NCBI RefSeq assembly: GCF_025352645.1
Contig: NZ_JANXSO010000035.1
Span: 1 to 62,938 of the forward strand
Reading direction: 5' to 3'
Source of the DNA: Iodobacter sp.
Lineage (GTDB): Bacteria > Pseudomonadota > Gammaproteobacteria > Burkholderiales > Chitinibacteraceae
DNA: 62,938 bases
The notes below the pieces were generated by a model. That model saw nothing but the letters and a program-made list of their open reading frames with translations, did no database searches and was not told the origin of the DNA. The position numbers were made by a program, and so were the translations under genes. How positions within the stretch are numbered: position 1 is the stretch's first letter; each line of letters starts with the position of its first letter. This document shows positions 22,592 through 32,715 of the stretch, piece by piece.

Positions 22592-24994
<2,403 letters not shown>

Positions 24995-25007: not shown

Positions 25008-25025
25008 TGTTTATCCTGTTAAACA
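25008..25025. promoter_or_regulatory. palindrome 1, TGTTTA-N6-TAAACA
   Basis: 18-base palindrome with perfect six-base arms, 14 bases after the ligA stop. It is the same as palindrome 2 in both arms and in two flanking bases on each side (AG before, TT after). It lies upstream of the Cro-like frame and is a candidate operator. Confidence 0.6.
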
Positions 25026-25057
25026 TTTGTGAATCTTGCAATGAGGGTTGACGTGAG

Positions 25058-25075
25058 TGTTTATTTATATAAACA
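25058..25075. promoter_or_regulatory. palindrome 2, TGTTTA-N6-TAAACA
   Basis: Second copy, starting exactly 50 bases after the first (close to five helical turns) and ending eight bases before the Cro-like ATG. A TTGACG hexamer at 25048-25053 abuts it and the AT-rich TATATAAA lies inside it, so a bound protein would cover the promoter. Confidence 0.65.
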
Positions 25076-25082
25076 TTGCAGT

Positions 25083-25262
25083 ATGCGAAAGTCTGAAGCA
25101 ATCCAACTGTTTGGCACCCAAACTCGTCTAGCCGATGCGTTAGGACTTGGGCGCTCTGCCGTTTCCCAGTGGCCAGATGAATTGGCACAGCGCCAAGCGG
25201 ATCAAGTGCTGGGGGCGGCATTAAGGCTCGGTTTACTCTCTACTTCATATCAGGATTCCCAA
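25083..25262 (+). CDS. P22-Cro-like helix-turn-helix segment, in frame with galU
   Basis: Sixty codons from ATG 25083 to the base before the galU ATG, with no stop codon, so translation continues directly into GalU. The segment closely follows the layout of phage P22 Cro: [19 protein letters not shown], then [14 protein letters not shown] with the recognition helix around AVSQW, and a final helix. The ATG lacks a good ribosome binding site and lies very near a possible -10 element (TATAAA 25068-25073), so a short-leader or leaderless start is possible. It may be the N-terminal domain of a 349-residue Cro-GalU protein, or an upstream coding segment from which galU is re-initiated. The two palindromes just upstream are the expected operators. 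Confidence 0.65.
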
Positions 25263-26132
25263 ATGCAAAAAGTACGTAAGGCCGTCTTCCCCGTTGCCGG
25301 TATGGGCACTCGTTTTTTGCCAGCCACCAAAGCTAGCCCAAAAGAAATGATGCCGGTGGTCGATAAGCCGCTGATCCAGTACGCGGTAGAGGAAGCGTTG
25401 GCGGCAGGTATTACCGAAATGATCTTTATTACTGGCCGTAATAAACGCAGCATTGAAGATCACTTTGATAAAGCCTATGAGTTAGAAGCCGAGCTAGAAG
25501 CCAAAAACAAACAAGCTCTACTGGAAATCTTGCGCGGTATTATTCCAAAATCAGTCAGCTGCATTTATATCCGCCAGCCAGAAGCCCTAGGCCTAGGCCA
25601 CGCCGTGCTCTGCGCTAAGCCTGTTGTTGGAGACGAGCCATTTGCTGTGATTTTGGCAGATGACTTAATCGATGGCGGTGCCACCAGCGAAATGAAACGC
25701 ATGGTCGATGTATTTAGTGATACCCATTGCTCTATTTTGGGCGTTGAGCAAGTGCCACAGCAAGACACCGGCTCGTACGGCATTGTTGAAGTGAATGATG
25801 GTAACGGTAAATTGAAAATCACCAATATCGTTGAAAAACCAAAGCCAGAAGAAGCCCCCTCTAATTTGGCCGTGGTGGGGCGCTATATTTTAACCCCGCG
25901 TATTTTCCACCACCTGCAACATGTGCAACCAGGTAAGGGGGGTGAAATCCAGCTTACTGATGGCATTTTCGCCCTGATGCAAGAGCAGCATATCTTGGCG
26001 CATAAAATAATCGGTACACGCTACGATTGTGGTTCTAAGCTGGGCTACCTGAAGGCCACAATGGCCTATGGTATGAAGCATGGTGAAGTTGGTGAAGAGT
26101 TTTCGGCTTACGTGAAGAGCTTAAAAGCTTAA
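25263..26132 (+). CDS. galU: UTP-glucose-1-phosphate uridylyltransferase GalU
   Basis: 289 residues from ATG 25263, the normal GalU length. The enzyme makes UDP-glucose from UTP and glucose 1-phosphate for surface polysaccharides. Motifs seen are the nucleotide-binding loop [33 protein letters not shown], the acidic region [10 protein letters not shown] and the late [17 protein letters not shown] at 25252-25255, seven bases before the ATG, is a good internal ribosome binding site, so GalU alone can be made. The frame is also open upstream through a Cro-like DNA-binding segment, so a longer fusion may exist too. A strong terminator follows. Confidence 0.93.
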
Positions 26133-26153: not shown

Positions 26154-26189
26154 AAAAAAGGCGACACCTCTGGTGTCGCCTTTTTTTTT
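26154..26189 (+). terminator. intrinsic terminator after galU
   Basis: GC-rich stem GGCGACACC / GGTGTCGCC with a three-base loop, flanked by six A and nine T. It separates galU from the sugar cassette. Confidence 0.93.
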
Positions 26190-26345: not shown

Positions 26346-27131
26346 ATGAAAGTAGTCATTTTAGCCGGTGGTTTAGGCACTCGTTTAGGTGAAGAAACTG
26401 ACGTGCATCCTAAGCCTATGGTTGAAATTGGCGGGCGGCCTATTTTATGGCACATCATGAAAATGTATTCGCATTATGGTTATAACGAGTTTGTTATTTT
26501 GCTGGGATATAAAGGAAATTTAATTAAAGAGTTTTTTGCTAATTATTTTCTTTATCAGGGTGATGTAACTATTGATTTAAGTAATAACCAGATTGAAGTA
26601 CACCGCAATCAGTCAGAGCCATGGAAAGTCACTTTATTAGAGACCGGCTTAAAAAGCCAAACCGGCGGGCGTATTCTGCGAGCCAGAGATTACTTGGGTG
26701 ATGAAGATTTTATGCTGACCTATGGCGACGGTGTTTCAGATGTGGATATTGCAGCCTTATTGGCGCAGCACCAGCAGCATGATGGCTTAGTGACAATGAC
26801 GACTGTTCAGCCTGAGGCCCGCTTTGGTATGGTCGATCCTGATTCAGCTGGGTTTATCCGCGAATTTAAAGAAAAACCGATTTCTGATCAGGCTTGGATT
26901 AATGGCGGCTTTATGGTGTGCCGCTCAGGCGTGTTTGATTATATTAAAGAGGGAGATCTGACCATATTTGAGCGTCTTCCTCTCGAAGAGCTGGCCAGTG
27001 ATGGCAAACTACTTGCCTATAGGCATACAGGTTTCTGGAAATGCATGGATACCTTGCGGGATAAAATCCAACTTAATCAGCTTTGGGACCAAGGCAAAGC
27101 GCCATGGAAGCAATGGGATGAATTGGGCTAG
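26346..27131 (+). CDS. rfbF: glucose-1-phosphate cytidylyltransferase RfbF
   Basis: 261 residues. It makes CDP-glucose from CTP and glucose 1-phosphate, the first step to CDP-linked deoxysugars. The nucleotidyltransferase start KVVILAGGLGTRLGEET, the PKPMVEIGGRPILWHIM segment and the acidic TYGDGVSDVD are family-typical. An AAGGA ribosome binding site precedes the ATG. It is the first gene of the sugar cassette, 157 bases after the galU terminator. A second, diverged copy of its last 94 bases lies 130 bases downstream, just before rfbG. Confidence 0.93.
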   Translation: MKVVILAGGLGTRLGEETDVHPKPMVEIGGRPILWHIMKMYSHYGYNEFVILLGYKGNLIKEFFANYFLYQGDVTIDLSNNQIEVHRNQSEPWKVTLLETGLKSQTGGRILRARDYLGDEDFMLTYGDGVSDVDIAALLAQHQQHDGLVTMTTVQPEARFGMVDPDSAGFIREFKEKPISDQAWINGGFMVCRSGVFDYIKEGDLTIFERLPLEELASDGKLLAYRHTGFWKCMDTLRDKIQLNQLWDQGKAPWKQWDELG

Positions 27132-27166
27132 ATAGTTTCGGTTTGCCTGTCGGTATGCGGCTATTA

Positions 27167-27261
27167 GGAAATGCATGGATATCTTGTGGGATAAAATTGA
27201 ACTTAATCAGCTTGGGGACCAGGGCAAAGTGCCATGGAAGCAATGGAATGAATTGGGCTAA
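27167..27261 (+). pseudogene. relic of an rfbF 3' end
   Basis: This stretch aligns without gaps to 27037-27131 of rfbF, with eight mismatches in the first 94 bases (about 91 percent identity). Translated in the same phase it gives KCMDILWDKIELNQL and ends with the same NELG plus stop as the last 31 codons of RfbF. No start or upstream coding sequence remains. Its stop lies two bases before the rfbG ATG, a junction as tight as those between later genes of the cassette. It therefore looks like the tail of the original rfbF, left behind when another allele was inserted. Confidence 0.8.
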
Positions 27262-27263
27262 AA

Positions 27264-28337
27264 ATGTTTGCTGATTGTTATCGCGATAAAAAAGTATTTA
27301 TTACTGGGCATACTGGCTTTAAAGGCAGCTGGTTAAGTCTGTGGTTAAGCCAATTATCCGCTAAGGTCTATGGCTATGCTCTGGCTCCTTTAGAGGGCGA
27401 GCGTTCGCATTACGCTCAGCTTGCGTTGCCTATTGAATCTACCATGGCGGATATTCGTGATTTTGCAAGGCTAAGTGCTGCTTTGCAGGAAGCAAGCCCA
27501 GAGATTGTCTTTCACTTGGCCGCCCAACCTTTGGTGCTAGAAAGCTACCGCGATCCACTGAATACTTGGAACACCAATGTGATGGGAACGGTTAATCTGC
27601 TGGAAGCCTGCCGCCACGTACCTTCAGTCAAGGCCGTGGTGGTGATTACCACGGATAAGTGTTACCAAAATCAGGAATGGCCTTGGGGCTACCGCGAGGT
27701 AGATGCGCTGGGTGGGCATGATCCTTATAGCGCCTCTAAAGCTGCGGCTGAGCTTGTGGCAGCATCTTATCGCGCCAGTTTTTCTAGCGCACATCGGCCT
27801 CAGCCCCTTCTTATTGCTACGGCAAGAGCGGGTAATGTTATTGGTGGGGGTGATTGGGCGCAAGATAGACTCGTGCCCGATGCGGTACGCGCCGTGCAGG
27901 CTGCAAAGCCCGTTGAAATTCGTAACCCTAGGGCCGTTCGCCCTTGGCAGCATGTGTTGGAGCCTTTGTCGGCCTATTTATTGATTGGTCAGCGCCTCTT
28001 GGCTGGGGATGTTCTCGCGGCTAAGGCTTGGAATGTGGGGCCTAGCGAGCGTGATGTCGCCTCTGTTGCGGCTGTATTAGATGGTATGGCAGAGCACTGG
28101 CCAGCGCTACAGTGGCAGGCGACGGATGCATCTGCGCACGAAACGCAGGCGCTGCGGTTGGATTCATCCCTTATTGCAGCAGAATTAGGCTGGCATCCCG
28201 TCTGGCCACTATCCCGTGCTTTGTTTGAAACCGTAGCTTGGTACCAGCGCGCAGATTCGGCACATTTACATACTTTGCCTCAGCTAAATGCTTATCTACA
28301 CGATGCAATAGATGCCAAATTAGGCTGGGCTTGCTGA
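27264..28337 (+). CDS. rfbG: CDP-glucose 4,6-dehydratase RfbG
   Basis: 357 residues of the extended short-chain dehydrogenase family. It converts CDP-glucose to CDP-4-keto-6-deoxyglucose. The N-terminal NAD-binding motif is TGHTGFKGSWL, the threonine of the active site is in VVITTDKCYQN, and the catalytic YxxxK is YSASKAAAE. The motif RAGNVIGGGDWA is characteristic of RfbG. It overlaps the next gene by one base (TGATG). The product is the branch point for abequose-type 3,6-dideoxysugars, but the needed 3-dehydratase RfbH is absent from this cassette. Confidence 0.93.
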   Translation: MFADCYRDKKVFITGHTGFKGSWLSLWLSQLSAKVYGYALAPLEGERSHYAQLALPIESTMADIRDFARLSAALQEASPEIVFHLAAQPLVLESYRDPLNTWNTNVMGTVNLLEACRHVPSVKAVVVITTDKCYQNQEWPWGYREVDALGGHDPYSASKAAAELVAASYRASFSSAHRPQPLLIATARAGNVIGGGDWAQDRLVPDAVRAVQAAKPVEIRNPRAVRPWQHVLEPLSAYLLIGQRLLAGDVLAAKAWNVGPSERDVASVAAVLDGMAEHWPALQWQATDASAHETQALRLDSSLIAAELGWHPVWPLSRALFETVAWYQRADSAHLHTLPQLNAYLHDAIDAKLGWAC

Positions 28338-28888
28338 TGCAAGTGCAGCGGTCAGCGATGGCAGGCGTGGCTGTGCTAGAAACAGATCGGCACGGCGATG
28401 CACGGGGGAGCTTTGCACGCTGGTTTTGTGAGAATGAGCTGGCCGATGTGTTGAGCGGTTCGGTTATCCGGCAAATCAATCACTCGCATAGTGCGCAGAT
28501 GGGTACGGTAAGAGGGCTACATTTTCAACACTCACCCTATGCTGAAAAGAAAATTGTGCGCTGTCTAGTGGGGCGGGTGTTTGATGTGGTGGTGGATTTA
28601 CGTGCGGGCTCGGCTACTTTTTTGCAGTGGCAGGCGGTTGAATTATCTGCAGATAATAATAAAGCCTTACTTATTCCTGAAGGCTGCGCCCATGGTTTTC
28701 AGACCTTAACGGACGATGTACAGCTACTCTATTTACACACGGCCCCGTATACGCCGGAAGCAGAATCGGCCGTTGCCTATAATGATCCTTGCATCAATAT
28801 TGCTTGGCCTTTAGCTGTGAGCGTGGTATCGGACCGAGACAAGCAGCATGCCCATTTGCCAGTCGATTTCCCTGGAATTACTTTATGA
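28337..28888 (+). CDS. RmlC-like NDP-4-keto-6-deoxyhexose epimerase
   Basis: 183 residues of the cupin RmlC family. The catalytic base His62 lies in TVRGLHFQ, and Tyr132 and Tyr138 are in LYLHTAPYTP, matching the RmlC numbering. RmlC epimerises C3 and C5 of dTDP-4-keto-6-deoxyglucose. In this CDP-glucose cassette the substrate is probably the CDP-4-keto sugar made by RfbG, at C3, C5 or both. The start at 28337 overlaps the rfbG stop by one base. No rmlA, rmlB or rmlD is nearby, so plain rhamnose synthesis is unlikely. Confidence 0.88.
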   Translation: MQVQRSAMAGVAVLETDRHGDARGSFARWFCENELADVLSGSVIRQINHSHSAQMGTVRGLHFQHSPYAEKKIVRCLVGRVFDVVVDLRAGSATFLQWQAVELSADNNKALLIPEGCAHGFQTLTDDVQLLYLHTAPYTPEAESAVAYNDPCINIAWPLAVSVVSDRDKQHAHLPVDFPGITL

Positions 28889-30108
28889 AATGTCGTCACT
28901 GCGCATCCCCCTTGCATTTGGATTTTATAGATCTGGGCTTTGCTCCTCCTTCAAACGCCTATCTTGGTTTAGAGGATTTATCTCGATCTGAGCTTTATTA
29001 CCCGCTTCGGGTCAAAGTATGTGAAAGCTGCTGGCTAGTGCAAACCGAAGACTTTGCCCAGCGCGATGCTTTTTTTAACGCGGATTACGCCTACTTTTCA
29101 TCGGTTTCCTCTTCTTGGCTTGCGCATGCACAGCATTACGTTGCGATGATCGCTGCCCGTTTGGGGCTGACCAGTGCTTCTATGGTGTGGGAAGTGGCGG
29201 CTAATGATGGCTATCTGCTGCAGTATGTTGCAAAGCGAGGGATTCCTTGTCTAGGAATTGAGCCAACGCATGGCACGGCTGAAGCGGCAAGGGCGAAGGG
29301 CTTGACGGTTGAAGAGGTGTTTTTTGGCCAGCAAAGTGCCGCAGCGCTGCGCACTTCCTACGGCTTGGCCGATTTAATTGTGGCAAATAATGTGTTTGCC
29401 CATGTGCCCGATATTAATGATTTTGTTGCTGGCCTCGCCACTGGCTTGGCTCAGGGCGGAACCATTACGCTAGAGTTCCCTCATTTATTAGCGCTGATTA
29501 CCCACTCGCAGTTCGATACCATCTACCACGAGCATTACTCCTATCTTTCCTTACTGGCCGTGCAGCGTATTCTGGCAGCGGCAGGCTTGCGAATTTATGA
29601 TGTTGAGCGCTTAAGTACACATGGCGGCAGCTTACGCGTTTATGCCTGCCATCAGCAGGCTAAGCAAGCTAGCTCGGCAGCGGTTTTAAATCTGATTGAT
29701 GAAGAAATAAGCGCAGGCTTAAATCAGGCTCATGTTTATCGTCAGTTTCAGCAGCAGGCTATTACAGTGCGTTTAGCGCTCACCGCTTTTTTGCTGGAAC
29801 AACACCGTGCGGGTAAACGTGTGCTGGCGTATGGCGCGGCAGCGAAGGGCAATACTTTGCTCAATTACGCAGGAATCGATGCGGTGCTGTTGCCCATGGT
29901 GGCGGATGCCGCGCCTTCTAAGCAGGGCAAATATCTACCGGGTAGCCATATCCCAATTCTCACGCCTACCGAACTCATTGAGGCTCGCCCAGATTATGTC
30001 CTGATTTTGCCGTGGAATTTAAAAGCCGAAGTGATGCAAGAGCTGGCGGTGATCGCAGAGTGGGGTGGGCAGTTTGTTACGGCGGTGCCGAGCTTGGAGA
30101 TCTTATGA
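28885..30108 (+). CDS. sugar C-methyltransferase (TylC3/EvaC-like)
   Basis: 407 residues. The N-terminal zinc-binding module has Cys3, Cys6, Cys46 and Cys49 (MKCRHC ... CESC). It is followed by a SAM-binding Rossmann domain with VWEVAANDGYLLQY and the catalytic-region motif IYHEHYSYLS, and then a C-terminal domain found in NDP-hexose C-3 methyltransferases. These enzymes methylate C3 of a 4-keto-6-deoxyhexose next to the keto group. Together with RfbF, RfbG and the epimerase this predicts a CDP-linked 3-C-methyl sugar. It overlaps its neighbours on both sides by ATGA. Confidence 0.88.
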   Translation: MKCRHCASPLHLDFIDLGFAPPSNAYLGLEDLSRSELYYPLRVKVCESCWLVQTEDFAQRDAFFNADYAYFSSVSSSWLAHAQHYVAMIAARLGLTSASMVWEVAANDGYLLQYVAKRGIPCLGIEPTHGTAEAARAKGLTVEEVFFGQQSAAALRTSYGLADLIVANNVFAHVPDINDFVAGLATGLAQGGTITLEFPHLLALITHSQFDTIYHEHYSYLSLLAVQRILAAAGLRIYDVERLSTHGGSLRVYACHQQAKQASSAAVLNLIDEEISAGLNQAHVYRQFQQQAITVRLALTAFLLEQHRAGKRVLAYGAAAKGNTLLNYAGIDAVLLPMVADAAPSKQGKYLPGSHIPILTPTELIEARPDYVLILPWNLKAEVMQELAVIAEWGGQFVTAVPSLEIL

Positions 30109-31214
30109 GTGAGCGAATTTTATACACTAAGCCTTCAATTACAGCGCTTGAGGTGGCCTATGCCTCAGATGCGGCTGCTAATGGCTGGGGTGAGCATTGC
30201 TATGATTATATTCATCGTTTTGAGACGGGTTTTGCTAAGTACTTAGATGTGCCTTATGCCATTGCAACCTCAAGTTGCACTGGGGCCATGCATATGGGGC
30301 TTGCTGCCTTAGGTATTGGTGCTGGTGATGAAGTGATTTTGGCGGATACCAACTGGGTCGCTACCGTTGCCCCGATTGTCCATTTGGGCGCTAGTCCTGT
30401 GTTTGTAGATATTCTGCCAAATAGCTGGTGCATTGATCCAGAAGCCGTAGTAGCTGCGATTACGCCGCGTACCCGCGCCATCGTGGCCACGCATATTTAC
30501 GGTAATTTATGTGATATGACGGTATTGGCTGCAATCGCAAAGCGCCATCAACTGATTCTTATTGAAGATGCGGCGGAGGCCATTGGATCTGTATATAAAG
30601 ACCGACGCGCTGGCTCCCTGGCTCATTTTGGGGTGTTTTCTTTTCATGGCACTAAAACCATCACGACGGGTGAAGGGGGGATGTTTGTTACTGCAGATGC
30701 AGGGCTGTATGAACGAGTACTGACCCTCAGTAACCATGGGCGCAAGCGTGGGGAAACCAAGCAATTTTGGCCAGAAAAAATTGGTTTTAAATATAAAATG
30801 TCTAATGTGCAGGCTGCAATGGGCTGCGCTCAATTAGAGCGGGTCGATGAGCTGGTGGCGCGTAAGCGAGAAATATTTATCGCTTATCGTGATGCATTGC
30901 AATCCATTCTCGGTGTTGCACTCAACCCAGAAGCTACAGATTGTACAAATGGCTTCTGGATGCCAACGGTGGTGTTTGATCAAACCACAGGTATAAATCG
31001 TGAGCAGCTTATTGCTGCTTTTAGCCATGCAAATATTGATGCTCGTGTCTTTTTTGATCCCTTATCGAGTACCCCCGCATTTCAAGCCGTATTAACAAAT
31101 GTAAACAGTTACTCAATTCCATTTAGAGCCATAAATTTGCCTAGTTATCATGATATGACCACCTCTCAAATTAAAAGAGTGATTGATTGTGTAATAGGTC
31201 TTTGCTCCGCATGA
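30105..31214 (+). CDS. DegT/DnrJ/EryC1-family sugar aminotransferase
   Basis: 369 residues of the PLP-dependent sugar aminotransferase family. Lys184 in FSFHGTKTITTGEGGM is the Schiff-base lysine. Its presence means an aminotransferase of the PerA/ArnB kind, not the RfbH or ColD dehydratase, in which this lysine is histidine. Other motifs are ATSSCTGAMHMGLAA and IEDAAEAIGS. It likely transfers an amino group from glutamate to C4 of the 4-keto sugar made upstream. It overlaps its neighbours on both sides by ATGA. The exact stereochemistry of the product cannot be read from sequence. Confidence 0.9.
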   Translation: MSERILYTKPSITALEVAYASDAAANGWGEHCYDYIHRFETGFAKYLDVPYAIATSSCTGAMHMGLAALGIGAGDEVILADTNWVATVAPIVHLGASPVFVDILPNSWCIDPEAVVAAITPRTRAIVATHIYGNLCDMTVLAAIAKRHQLILIEDAAEAIGSVYKDRRAGSLAHFGVFSFHGTKTITTGEGGMFVTADAGLYERVLTLSNHGRKRGETKQFWPEKIGFKYKMSNVQAAMGCAQLERVDELVARKREIFIAYRDALQSILGVALNPEATDCTNGFWMPTVVFDQTTGINREQLIAAFSHANIDARVFFDPLSSTPAFQAVLTNVNSYSIPFRAINLPSYHDMTTSQIKRVIDCVIGLCSA

Positions 31215-31867
31215 GCCAGAAAAAAATTTTATTGCTAGGGGCCAATAACCCAGAAGTGGCACGCATTATCTCTTGTATGGATCAAGATAAGAGAAGCCAG
31301 TTTGCTGGGTATATAGATAATGCACCCCAGAAAAAAGGGCAATTATTTTATGGACTGCCGGTTTTAGGTGGGTTTGAAATACTTCCCCAGCTTGATCCTA
31401 CTGAATATAAATTTGTAAATCTTATTACACGGGATTGTATAACCCGCCACCAAACAACATTAAGTATGAGTCGCTTTGGCTTTGAAATGACAAACTTTAT
31501 TCATCCGGGGCTAGATACCGGCATGGTTACTTTAGGGGAGGGTTTGTATTTACAGGGGGCGGCTATTCTTCAGGCAGAAGTTGTGCTTGCGAATAATGTG
31601 AGCATTTCTGCGGGTGCAATTGTCGGGCATGAAACACATATTGGCGAGTCTTCTTTCTTAGCTCCTGGGGTAACCGTATCTGGGTGCGTAAATATTGCTT
31701 GTGGGGTTTTTATTGGTTCCGGTGCATCTATTGTGCCTAGGGTGAGTATCGGTGATTGGTCCATTATTGGAGCAGGATCCGTTATCACTAGGGATGTGTC
31801 TGCAGGTGCGGTAATGGTAGGAAATCCTGCAAGAATTTTGAGAATGCAGGATATACCTGAATTTTGA
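31211..31867 (+). CDS. NeuD/PglD-like hexapeptide-repeat acyltransferase
   Basis: 218 residues. An N-terminal Rossmann-like part (KKILLLGANNPEVARII) is followed by a left-handed beta-helix of hexapeptide repeats (about 105-205) and the closing motif VMVGNPARIL. His in IVGHETHIGE corresponds to the catalytic histidine of PglD/NeuD sugar N-acetyltransferases. It probably acylates the amino sugar formed by the preceding aminotransferase. It overlaps that gene by ATGA. The N-terminus differs from PglD in its sugar-binding loop, so the acyl donor (acetyl or longer) is open. Confidence 0.85.
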   Translation: MSQKKILLLGANNPEVARIISCMDQDKRSQFAGYIDNAPQKKGQLFYGLPVLGGFEILPQLDPTEYKFVNLITRDCITRHQTTLSMSRFGFEMTNFIHPGLDTGMVTLGEGLYLQGAAILQAEVVLANNVSISAGAIVGHETHIGESSFLAPGVTVSGCVNIACGVFIGSGASIVPRVSIGDWSIIGAGSVITRDVSAGAVMVGNPARILRMQDIPEF

Positions 31868-31896
31868 ATATAGGTTTAAATGGCTGGAGATGTGAA

Positions 31897-32715
31897 ATGA
31901 ATAATGATTTACATAAAGAATTTGCGCAGGAGCGCGCCTGCGATATTCAAAGACAAGGGAGTGACTCTCTTGCTTGTGCAATCGGGCTCGAGTTTCTGGT
32001 AAAAACGGCTCCGTATAAATACACCTATAATTTCAAATCTCTGGGGCGGCCTATTATTCAATTTCCGCAGGATATGATTGCCATACAAGAATTAATATGG
32101 GAGCTTAAACCTGATTTGATTATTGAAACGGGCATTGCGCATGGTGGGTCACTCATTATGAGTGCGTCTATGTTAGCAATGCTGGACTATTGTGATGCCG
32201 TAGAGCAAGGAAAAATGCTTGATCCACGTGCCGTGGGGCGTAAAGTGGTGGGCGTTGATATTGATATCCGCCAGCATAATCGTGAGGCAATAGAGGCTCA
32301 TCCTCTTGCGCATAAAATTGAGATGATACAAGGGTCGTCTGTTGACCCGCTGATTGTAGAGAAAATTAAAAATATAGCATCTTCGTATTCTAAAGTTTTA
32401 GTCTGCCTAGATTCAAATCATACTCATGAGCATGTTCTTGAGGAACTAAAAGCATATGCCCCAATGGTGTCGCCTAACAGCTATTGCGTTGTTTTTGATA
32501 CCGTGATTGAAAATATGCCACAGGATGCTTTCCCTGATCGGCCATGGGGTATTGGAAATAACCCTAAGACAGCCGTGCATGCGTATTTAAAAGTGCTAGA
32601 AAGCCAAAAAATATATGGGCTGAATGGTTCGGTATTGAAGTATGAAATTGATAAAAATATAGAAAATAAACTATTGATCACTGTTGCTCCTGATGGTTAT
32701 CTGAAAAGAATTTAA
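31897..32715 (+). CDS. CmcI-like (cephalosporin hydroxylase family) SAM-dependent protein
   Basis: 272 residues of the family named after CmcI, whose members are mostly SAM-dependent O-methyltransferases. The SAM-binding motif is LIIETGIAHGGSLIMSA, followed by GVDIDIRQHN and the metal-ligand region CLDSNHTHEHV. The ATG at 31897 has GGAGA seven bases upstream and is preferred over the TTG at 31864. Such genes are common in polysaccharide and glycosylation clusters. Here it may O-methylate the sugar or a glycan end. Base composition becomes AT-rich from here on. Confidence 0.82.
   Translation: MNNDLHKEFAQERACDIQRQGSDSLACAIGLEFLVKTAPYKYTYNFKSLGRPIIQFPQDMIAIQELIWELKPDLIIETGIAHGGSLIMSASMLAMLDYCDAVEQGKMLDPRAVGRKVVGVDIDIRQHNREAIEAHPLAHKIEMIQGSSVDPLIVEKIKNIASSYSKVLVCLDSNHTHEHVLEELKAYAPMVSPNSYCVVFDTVIENMPQDAFPDRPWGIGNNPKTAVHAYLKVLESQKIYGLNGSVLKYEIDKNIENKLLITVAPDGYLKRI

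Follow-up and report, generated by a model that had tools for sequence, protein, structure and literature searches.

GalU is usually regarded as a plain housekeeping enzyme. GalU enzymes are tetramers, and UDP-glucose stands at the start of the routes to capsule, LPS and further sugar polymers and is also a growth signal. Among trigger enzymes, PutA carries a ribbon-helix-helix domain, BirA a winged helix, and NadR a helix-turn-helix (HTH) of another family; the locus described here, which we call Cro-GalU, differs from them in its enzyme, GalU, and in its DNA-binding domain. A leaderless repressor mRNA is known from lambda cI, transcribed from PRM. The promoter of Cro-GalU, which operators overlie, appears likewise placed for transcription to begin at the ATG, and the message would additionally have an internal Shine-Dalgarno (SD) start for the enzyme.

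PutA, BirA, NadR, PepA and PyrH of Escherichia coli are trigger enzymes (PMC8249747). Cro-GalU resembles them as a metabolic enzyme that apparently acts on transcription and that, like PutA, seems to be aimed at its own locus. The locus seems to add an internal start that would give the enzyme without the DNA-binding domain.

The first 40–50 residues are similar in sequence and fold to P22 Cro (PDB code 1rzs) and its relatives (PF14549, DicC, PHROG 409), and such an HTH would be expected to act at palindromic operators and so to control a promoter. Unlike P22 Cro, the HTH of Cro-GalU is fused to an enzyme and, in most of a bacterial family, has become a fixed part of the chromosome. The catalytic protein matches bacterial GalU (TIGR01099; PDB codes 5vct and 2e3d) over its full length, the Cro domain being an extra element.

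A Cro-type domain in one frame with GalU

In the window, that is, the whole stretch of 62,938 nucleotides that was analysed, positions 25083..26132 (+ strand) form one open frame whose translation gives 349 residues and a stop codon, with no internal stops. The frame begins with a P22-Cro-type HTH domain of 53 codons (25083..25241, +), the start of a long and probably leaderless form, followed by a linker of seven codons (25242..25262, +) that is variable yet in frame at every locus compared. GalU (UTP-glucose-1-phosphate uridylyltransferase) extends from an internal ATG to the stop codon (25263..26132, +), as assigned from the translation, a profile match, a structure match and an alignment. 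The internal start is preceded by an SD-like AGGA (25252..25255, +). A terminator-like hairpin followed by a T run lies downstream (26154..26186, +); two such hairpins occur in the scanned stretch against 1.3 expected. The original prediction had proposed a Cro-like segment of 60 residues upstream of galU, a frame without a stop codon before the GalU methionine, and a separate AGGA ribosome binding site for GalU; the first is borne out by a match to the P22_Cro profile above its cut-off, and the 349-residue frame and the AGGA are both present in the window.

Residues 2–39 match Pfam P22_Cro (PF14549) with 36.2 bits when searched as the 60-residue segment and with 32.3 bits within the whole protein, the cut-off being 30.2 bits. 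The HTH also matches the transcriptional regulator PHROG 409 (E 8e-9), and the best solved structure by profile is P22 Cro 1rzs (E = 2.1e-8). A model of the domain alone has a mean pLDDT of 97.7, and its best Foldseek match is again 1rzs, with a TM score of 0.79 and an rmsd of 1.2 Å, the E-value being weak (1.8e-3). In this model nothing of the domain follows its fourth helix, and dimerisation may therefore be supplied by the GalU part. The model of the full-length fusion has a mean pLDDT of 42.4 and gives no placement of the HTH on the GalU oligomer.

Residues 64–325 match TIGR01099 with 380.3 bits, above the equivalog cut-off of 326.8 bits, and cover the full model (1–261 of 261); in sequence, many GalU columns are invariant over 24 aligned rows. 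At the gene level, profile matches and open frame together show that one gene encodes both an intact-looking enzyme and a DNA-binding domain. Among 49 solved chains matched (e.g. 5vct and 2e3d), only P22 Cro matches before residue 58, and by this comparison no solved GalU carries a Cro domain. A second GalU of more than 50% identity over its length is absent, among the matches listed, from 33 of 34 genomes (the exception is G012), so that the Cro-GalU gene seems to supply the UDP-glucose of the cell.

The architecture is found in most of the Chitinibacteraceae, a family of bacteria that degrade chitin. In a first family sample, 34 of 37 genomes contain the full-length frame without a stop. Of 43 family genomes searched with the HTH profile, 40 have the gene, the open frames being 356–411 codons long; the GalU part was read or aligned for 38 of these 40, G424 and G425 being represented by the open frame only. 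At all 22 named loci the frame is unbroken from the ATG of the HTH through GalU (349–358 aa). These loci belong to ten genera (Silvimonas, Andreprevotia, Jeongeupia, Deefgea, Chitinolyticbacter, Amantichitinum, Chitinibacter, Iodobacter, Chitinilyticum and Chitiniphilus), two of them being MAGs under other labels, and the 34/37, 40/43 and 22/22 sets overlap. A stop codon or frameshift between the two parts in relatives had been named beforehand as a result that would refute the prediction, and none of the 40 HTH-bearing family genomes has a stop. The fused frame is real, and a chance coincidence is excluded by its conservation across the genomes of the family. The three genomes that lack the gene (G016, G025 and G033; L138–L141) constitute the whole of one genus, g9. 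There ligA is present, and the best match to the Cro-GalU query is just 34–35% identical; the genus seems to be without a GalU of this type.

Beyond the family the fusion was not found among the matches listed or scored. For 24 genomes that belong to the order but to other families, all GalU matches listed begin at query residue 43 or later, and none covers the HTH. The HTH profile was further applied to overlapping samples of the order (399 genomes, 27 with a match, 13 of these from the family), the class (369 genomes, 16 with a match) and the phylum (398 genomes, 23 with a match), the last two including the genome of the window. Outside the family, the open frames that hold scored matches with E < 1e-8 are all 66–149 aa long; from longer candidate lists 16–18 were scored. 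Weaker partial matches occur in longer frames (e.g. G210, G253 and G1112). In a plasmid collection, three of the ten matches listed (H16, H17 and H22) reach query residue 24–25, and H16 and H22 have, by eye, no HTH upstream of GalU. A search of the open-access literature did not find a Cro-GalU fusion among the papers listed.

Paired operators and a candidate promoter

An earlier reading of this DNA overlooked two operators, a promoter and an apparent leaderless start upstream of the frame. Comparisons were made on a set of 34 Cro-GalU loci, which are related by descent, so that a count of 34/34 does not amount to 34 independent tests. A palindrome of the form TGTTYA-N6-TRAACA occurs twice upstream of the gene at all 34 loci, the weakest copies retaining 10 of the 12 consensus positions. 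Operator O1, TGTTTATCCTGTTAAACA (25008..25025, no strand assigned), departs from the consensus at no more than two of the 12 positions and begins at −72 to −76 relative to the ATG. Operator O2, TGTTTATTTATATAAACA (25058..25075, no strand assigned), overlies the spacer and the −10 element, departs at no more than one position, and has its first base at −24 to −26. Both appear in the column-by-column footprint, in which the palindromes and TTGAC are conserved amid unconserved DNA. A relaxed pattern places both operators at 20 of the 22 named loci; the other two also have both, with one core base off in one site of the pair.

The candidate −35 element, TTGACG (25048..25053, +), starts at −35 from the ATG in 17 loci, at −36 in 16 and at −34 in one; its TTG is invariant in the 34 loci, and the following A and C are each found in 32. 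The presumed −10 element, AAACAT (25071..25076, +; A at −11 and T at −7), stands behind a 17-bp spacer. The A and T at the key positions are found with a 17-bp spacer in 30 of the 34 loci and with an 18-bp spacer in the other four. The T just outside O2, which is the last base of the −10 element, is kept in 30 loci, and the mirror position is not kept. The presumed −10 element fits the consensus poorly, and a plain consensus promoter scan of the region returns no promoters against 2.4 in shuffled sequences. Because of the −35/−10 geometry, transcription is predicted to begin at the ATG of the long form or within 1–2 bases of it, giving a leaderless message. Start codons further upstream, such as the GTG at 25029, were considered and rejected: at the plus-strand loci the upstream open stretch varies between genomes, whereas the ATG is kept at 34/34.

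The starts of O1 and O2 are separated by 48 bases in five loci, 49 in 19, 50 in nine and 51 in one. At 10.5 bp a turn this corresponds to 4.6–4.9 helical turns, which is not a whole number and argues against the simplest picture of two sites on the same face of the helix.

With the operators and promoter, the link between sugar-nucleotide supply and transcription suggested by the original prediction becomes specific, since the main target is then the promoter of the gene itself. The reading that we favour, with a probability of roughly 0.7, is that GalU is a trigger enzyme that represses its own promoter through its Cro domain, with a leaderless mRNA and two products from this one mRNA. RNA polymerase would start at the ATG at 25083 or within 1–2 bases of it, and ribosomes that initiate at the 5' ATG of the message would make Cro-GalU, those that initiate at the internal site at 25263 plain GalU. 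The GalU oligomer would pair the HTHs, and dimers of Cro-GalU would bind O2, over the −10 element, and O1, about 50 bp upstream, shutting the promoter; repression would be exerted at O2 and helped by O1. We infer the leaderless start, the DNA binding, both protein products and the oligomer-driven dimerisation. The supply of GalU would thus be held in feedback, and occupancy of the GalU part by substrate or product may alter binding. Within this scheme, metabolite sensing by the GalU part is the weakest link; it is a guess carried over from trigger enzymes such as PutA (PMC8249747), and we put it somewhat short of even odds. A more ambitious version, in which the family senses UDP-glucose through the ligand state of Cro-GalU and the ratio of leaderless to SD initiation sets the share of the enzyme that can act as repressor, so that translation conditions would tune the gain of the feedback, is tentative and on balance doubtful. 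The three family genomes that live without the gene count against the favoured reading.

Two starts, the linker and sites elsewhere

Both starts that had been proposed, at 25083 and 25263, are conserved in 34/34 loci. Over HTH and linker together, the 34 loci have no stops in frame and 52 and 62 in the other two frames. For the linker alone the three frames contain 0, 0 and 8 stops, so that the absence of in-frame stops from its 296 codons is weak by itself; the linker lengths are the stronger sequence evidence on the frame. These are 21, 24, 27, 30 or 42 nt, all multiples of three, in a segment whose residues vary freely. Judged from the sequences, the open frame from the HTH into GalU is under selection. 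Over nine genomes of the genus of the window, the HTH has a dN/dS of 0.077, which lies between the values of GalU (0.018) and the linker (0.73) and places the HTH under purifying selection.

The near-free evolution of the linker, with a pN/pS of 0.82 where it is 27 nt long (17 loci) in addition to its high dN/dS, resembles that of a flexible spacer or a cut site. It would suit an arrangement in which the HTH is in effect a separate Cro autorepressor, either because the long form is cut or because its parts act independently, and in which the fusion serves only translational coupling. The nearest relatives of the HTH outside the family, which are stand-alone Cro proteins, also favour such an arrangement. 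Coupling, however, requires no open frame, yet a stop is found in 0/40 genomes and all five linker lengths keep the frame, and we regard a separate Cro as unlikely.

The internal start has signals of its own. The best SD match at −18 to −5 of the GalU ATG is 4–6 nt long in 34/34 loci. In controls, 4 nt is reached in 1710 of 8840 windows inside GalU and before 56 of 224 other in-frame ATGs. Ahead of the long start, 33 loci have an SD-like match of 0 or 3 nt at best, and one locus has 4 nt. Across genomes the GG of the internal motif occupies all three codon phases while the encoded residues change; it is therefore the nucleotides that are kept and not the residues. By this comparison the second start, consisting of the GalU ATG and its SD-like motif, is also under selection. 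These observations bear on the suggestion that only the fusion is made and that the internal ATG is the retained first residue of an ancestral GalU. In its favour, most GalU loci of other families begin near the same residue, and leaderless starts can be efficient. The persistence of the motif across codon phases points the other way, as does the low synonymous change of the linker (pS 0.08 against 0.43 for the HTH, in the genus of the window and over few sites), and production of the fusion alone appears rather improbable.

The distribution of operator sites indicates how far the regulation may reach. A strict form of the operator pair was found in 27 of the 43 family genomes, once in each and always before the Cro-GalU gene, and not at all in a reversed control. 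The three family genomes without the gene are also without the strict pair. Thirteen gene-bearing genomes lack it; 12 of these belong to the set of 34 loci, where one site or both are 1–2 positions off, and the thirteenth is G425. The strict operator is absent from the 300 nt upstream of galU at all 14 galU loci outside the Cro-GalU set, which comprise 13 from other families and the second copy in G012. This copy, L136, is a Cro-free GalU, 60% identical, present in G012 besides Cro-GalU.

Single sites are more widespread. The genome of the window has eight, two at Cro-GalU and six elsewhere, against one in the reversed control. Eight other genomes have 31 in total, with 2–5 in each: 12 at Cro-GalU and 19 (1–5 per genome) away from galU, against seven control matches (0–2 per genome). 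This excess over the controls is what would be expected if Cro-GalU were a wider regulator of envelope-sugar genes, and O1, centred near −66, could even activate. The genes neighbouring the six other sites in the genome of the window show no common theme; a carbohydrate-kinase-like and a glycosidase-like gene (both named by eye) are among them. Eight of the 19 sites elsewhere were read, and all eight are inside open stretches of at least 110 codons and resemble coding DNA. One 18-mer common to G029 and G032 sits in a dcd-like gene, where the DNA is 79% identical over 1.9 kb; this conserved DNA can account for the sharing, which therefore needs no regulator. Another 18-mer is common to G019, G029 and G032, the G019 copy being in a permease-like open stretch. 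With the distant sites that were read resembling coding DNA and the strict pair unique to the Cro-GalU promoter in all 27 genomes that have it, a wider regulon is only an outside chance. From the site counts, we take Cro-GalU to have a single main target, its own promoter, with minor further targets possible. Such identical operator-like palindromes in coding-like DNA of different genera (L146, L155 and L159) probably recur through conserved coding sequence.

Origin of the fusion and its meaning

In the window, Cro-GalU is preceded by a ligA-like gene (22598–24994, named by eye), and 31 of the 34 Cro-GalU loci have ligA sequence no more than about 1.5 kb upstream. The two genes are also neighbours where the Cro domain is absent: ligA precedes galU at 10 of the 14 other galU loci, and at nine no more than about 70 nt separates the end of the match from the start of galU. 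Stand-alone relatives of the HTH occur in a prophage-like setting, in two viral contigs and in 20 phage records, none of which reaches 60% identity. Most simply, a cro gene of phage origin would have entered, together with its operators, between ligA and galU in an ancestor of most of the family and then been fused to galU, which kept its ribosome site. That the HTH might instead be a relic of a decaying prophage cro, in frame by accident, has the phage type of the domain in its favour and is vanishingly improbable, being ruled out by the HTH dN/dS and the operators conserved with it throughout the family.

A LigA tree was obtained for 36 of 49 loci, four others being too short and nine having no match to the stretch used. 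In this tree, 22 of 24 Cro-GalU rows are on a long branch, apart from G013, G030, genus g9 and eight of nine other-family rows. The ligA-like neighbour of Cro-GalU thus occurs as two sequence types within the family, and G048, from another family, groups with the divergent type. At L142 (1501–1905) there is a prophage-like ORF of 134 aa near a CI-like repressor, apparently, by eye, with two tandem Cro-type HTH segments; of the stand-alone relatives scored in the class sample, the first segment is the one closest to the Cro-GalU domain. Soon after the galU terminator of the window, positions 26346–32715 have, by eye, the appearance of a nucleotide-sugar/O-antigen cluster, with a glucose-1-phosphate cytidylyltransferase-like ORF first (26346–27131).

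Trigger enzymes are an already known kind of regulator; what would be new here is GalU as the enzyme, the Cro domain and the design with two starts. In nearly the whole of a bacterial family GalU appears to be its own transcription factor, by way of a phage-type Cro domain that was acquired between ligA and galU and shares the frame of galU. The few trigger enzymes known would thus be joined by GalU, and their DNA-binding domains by the Cro fold, the gene also having a second start of its own from which enzyme without the repressor part would be made.
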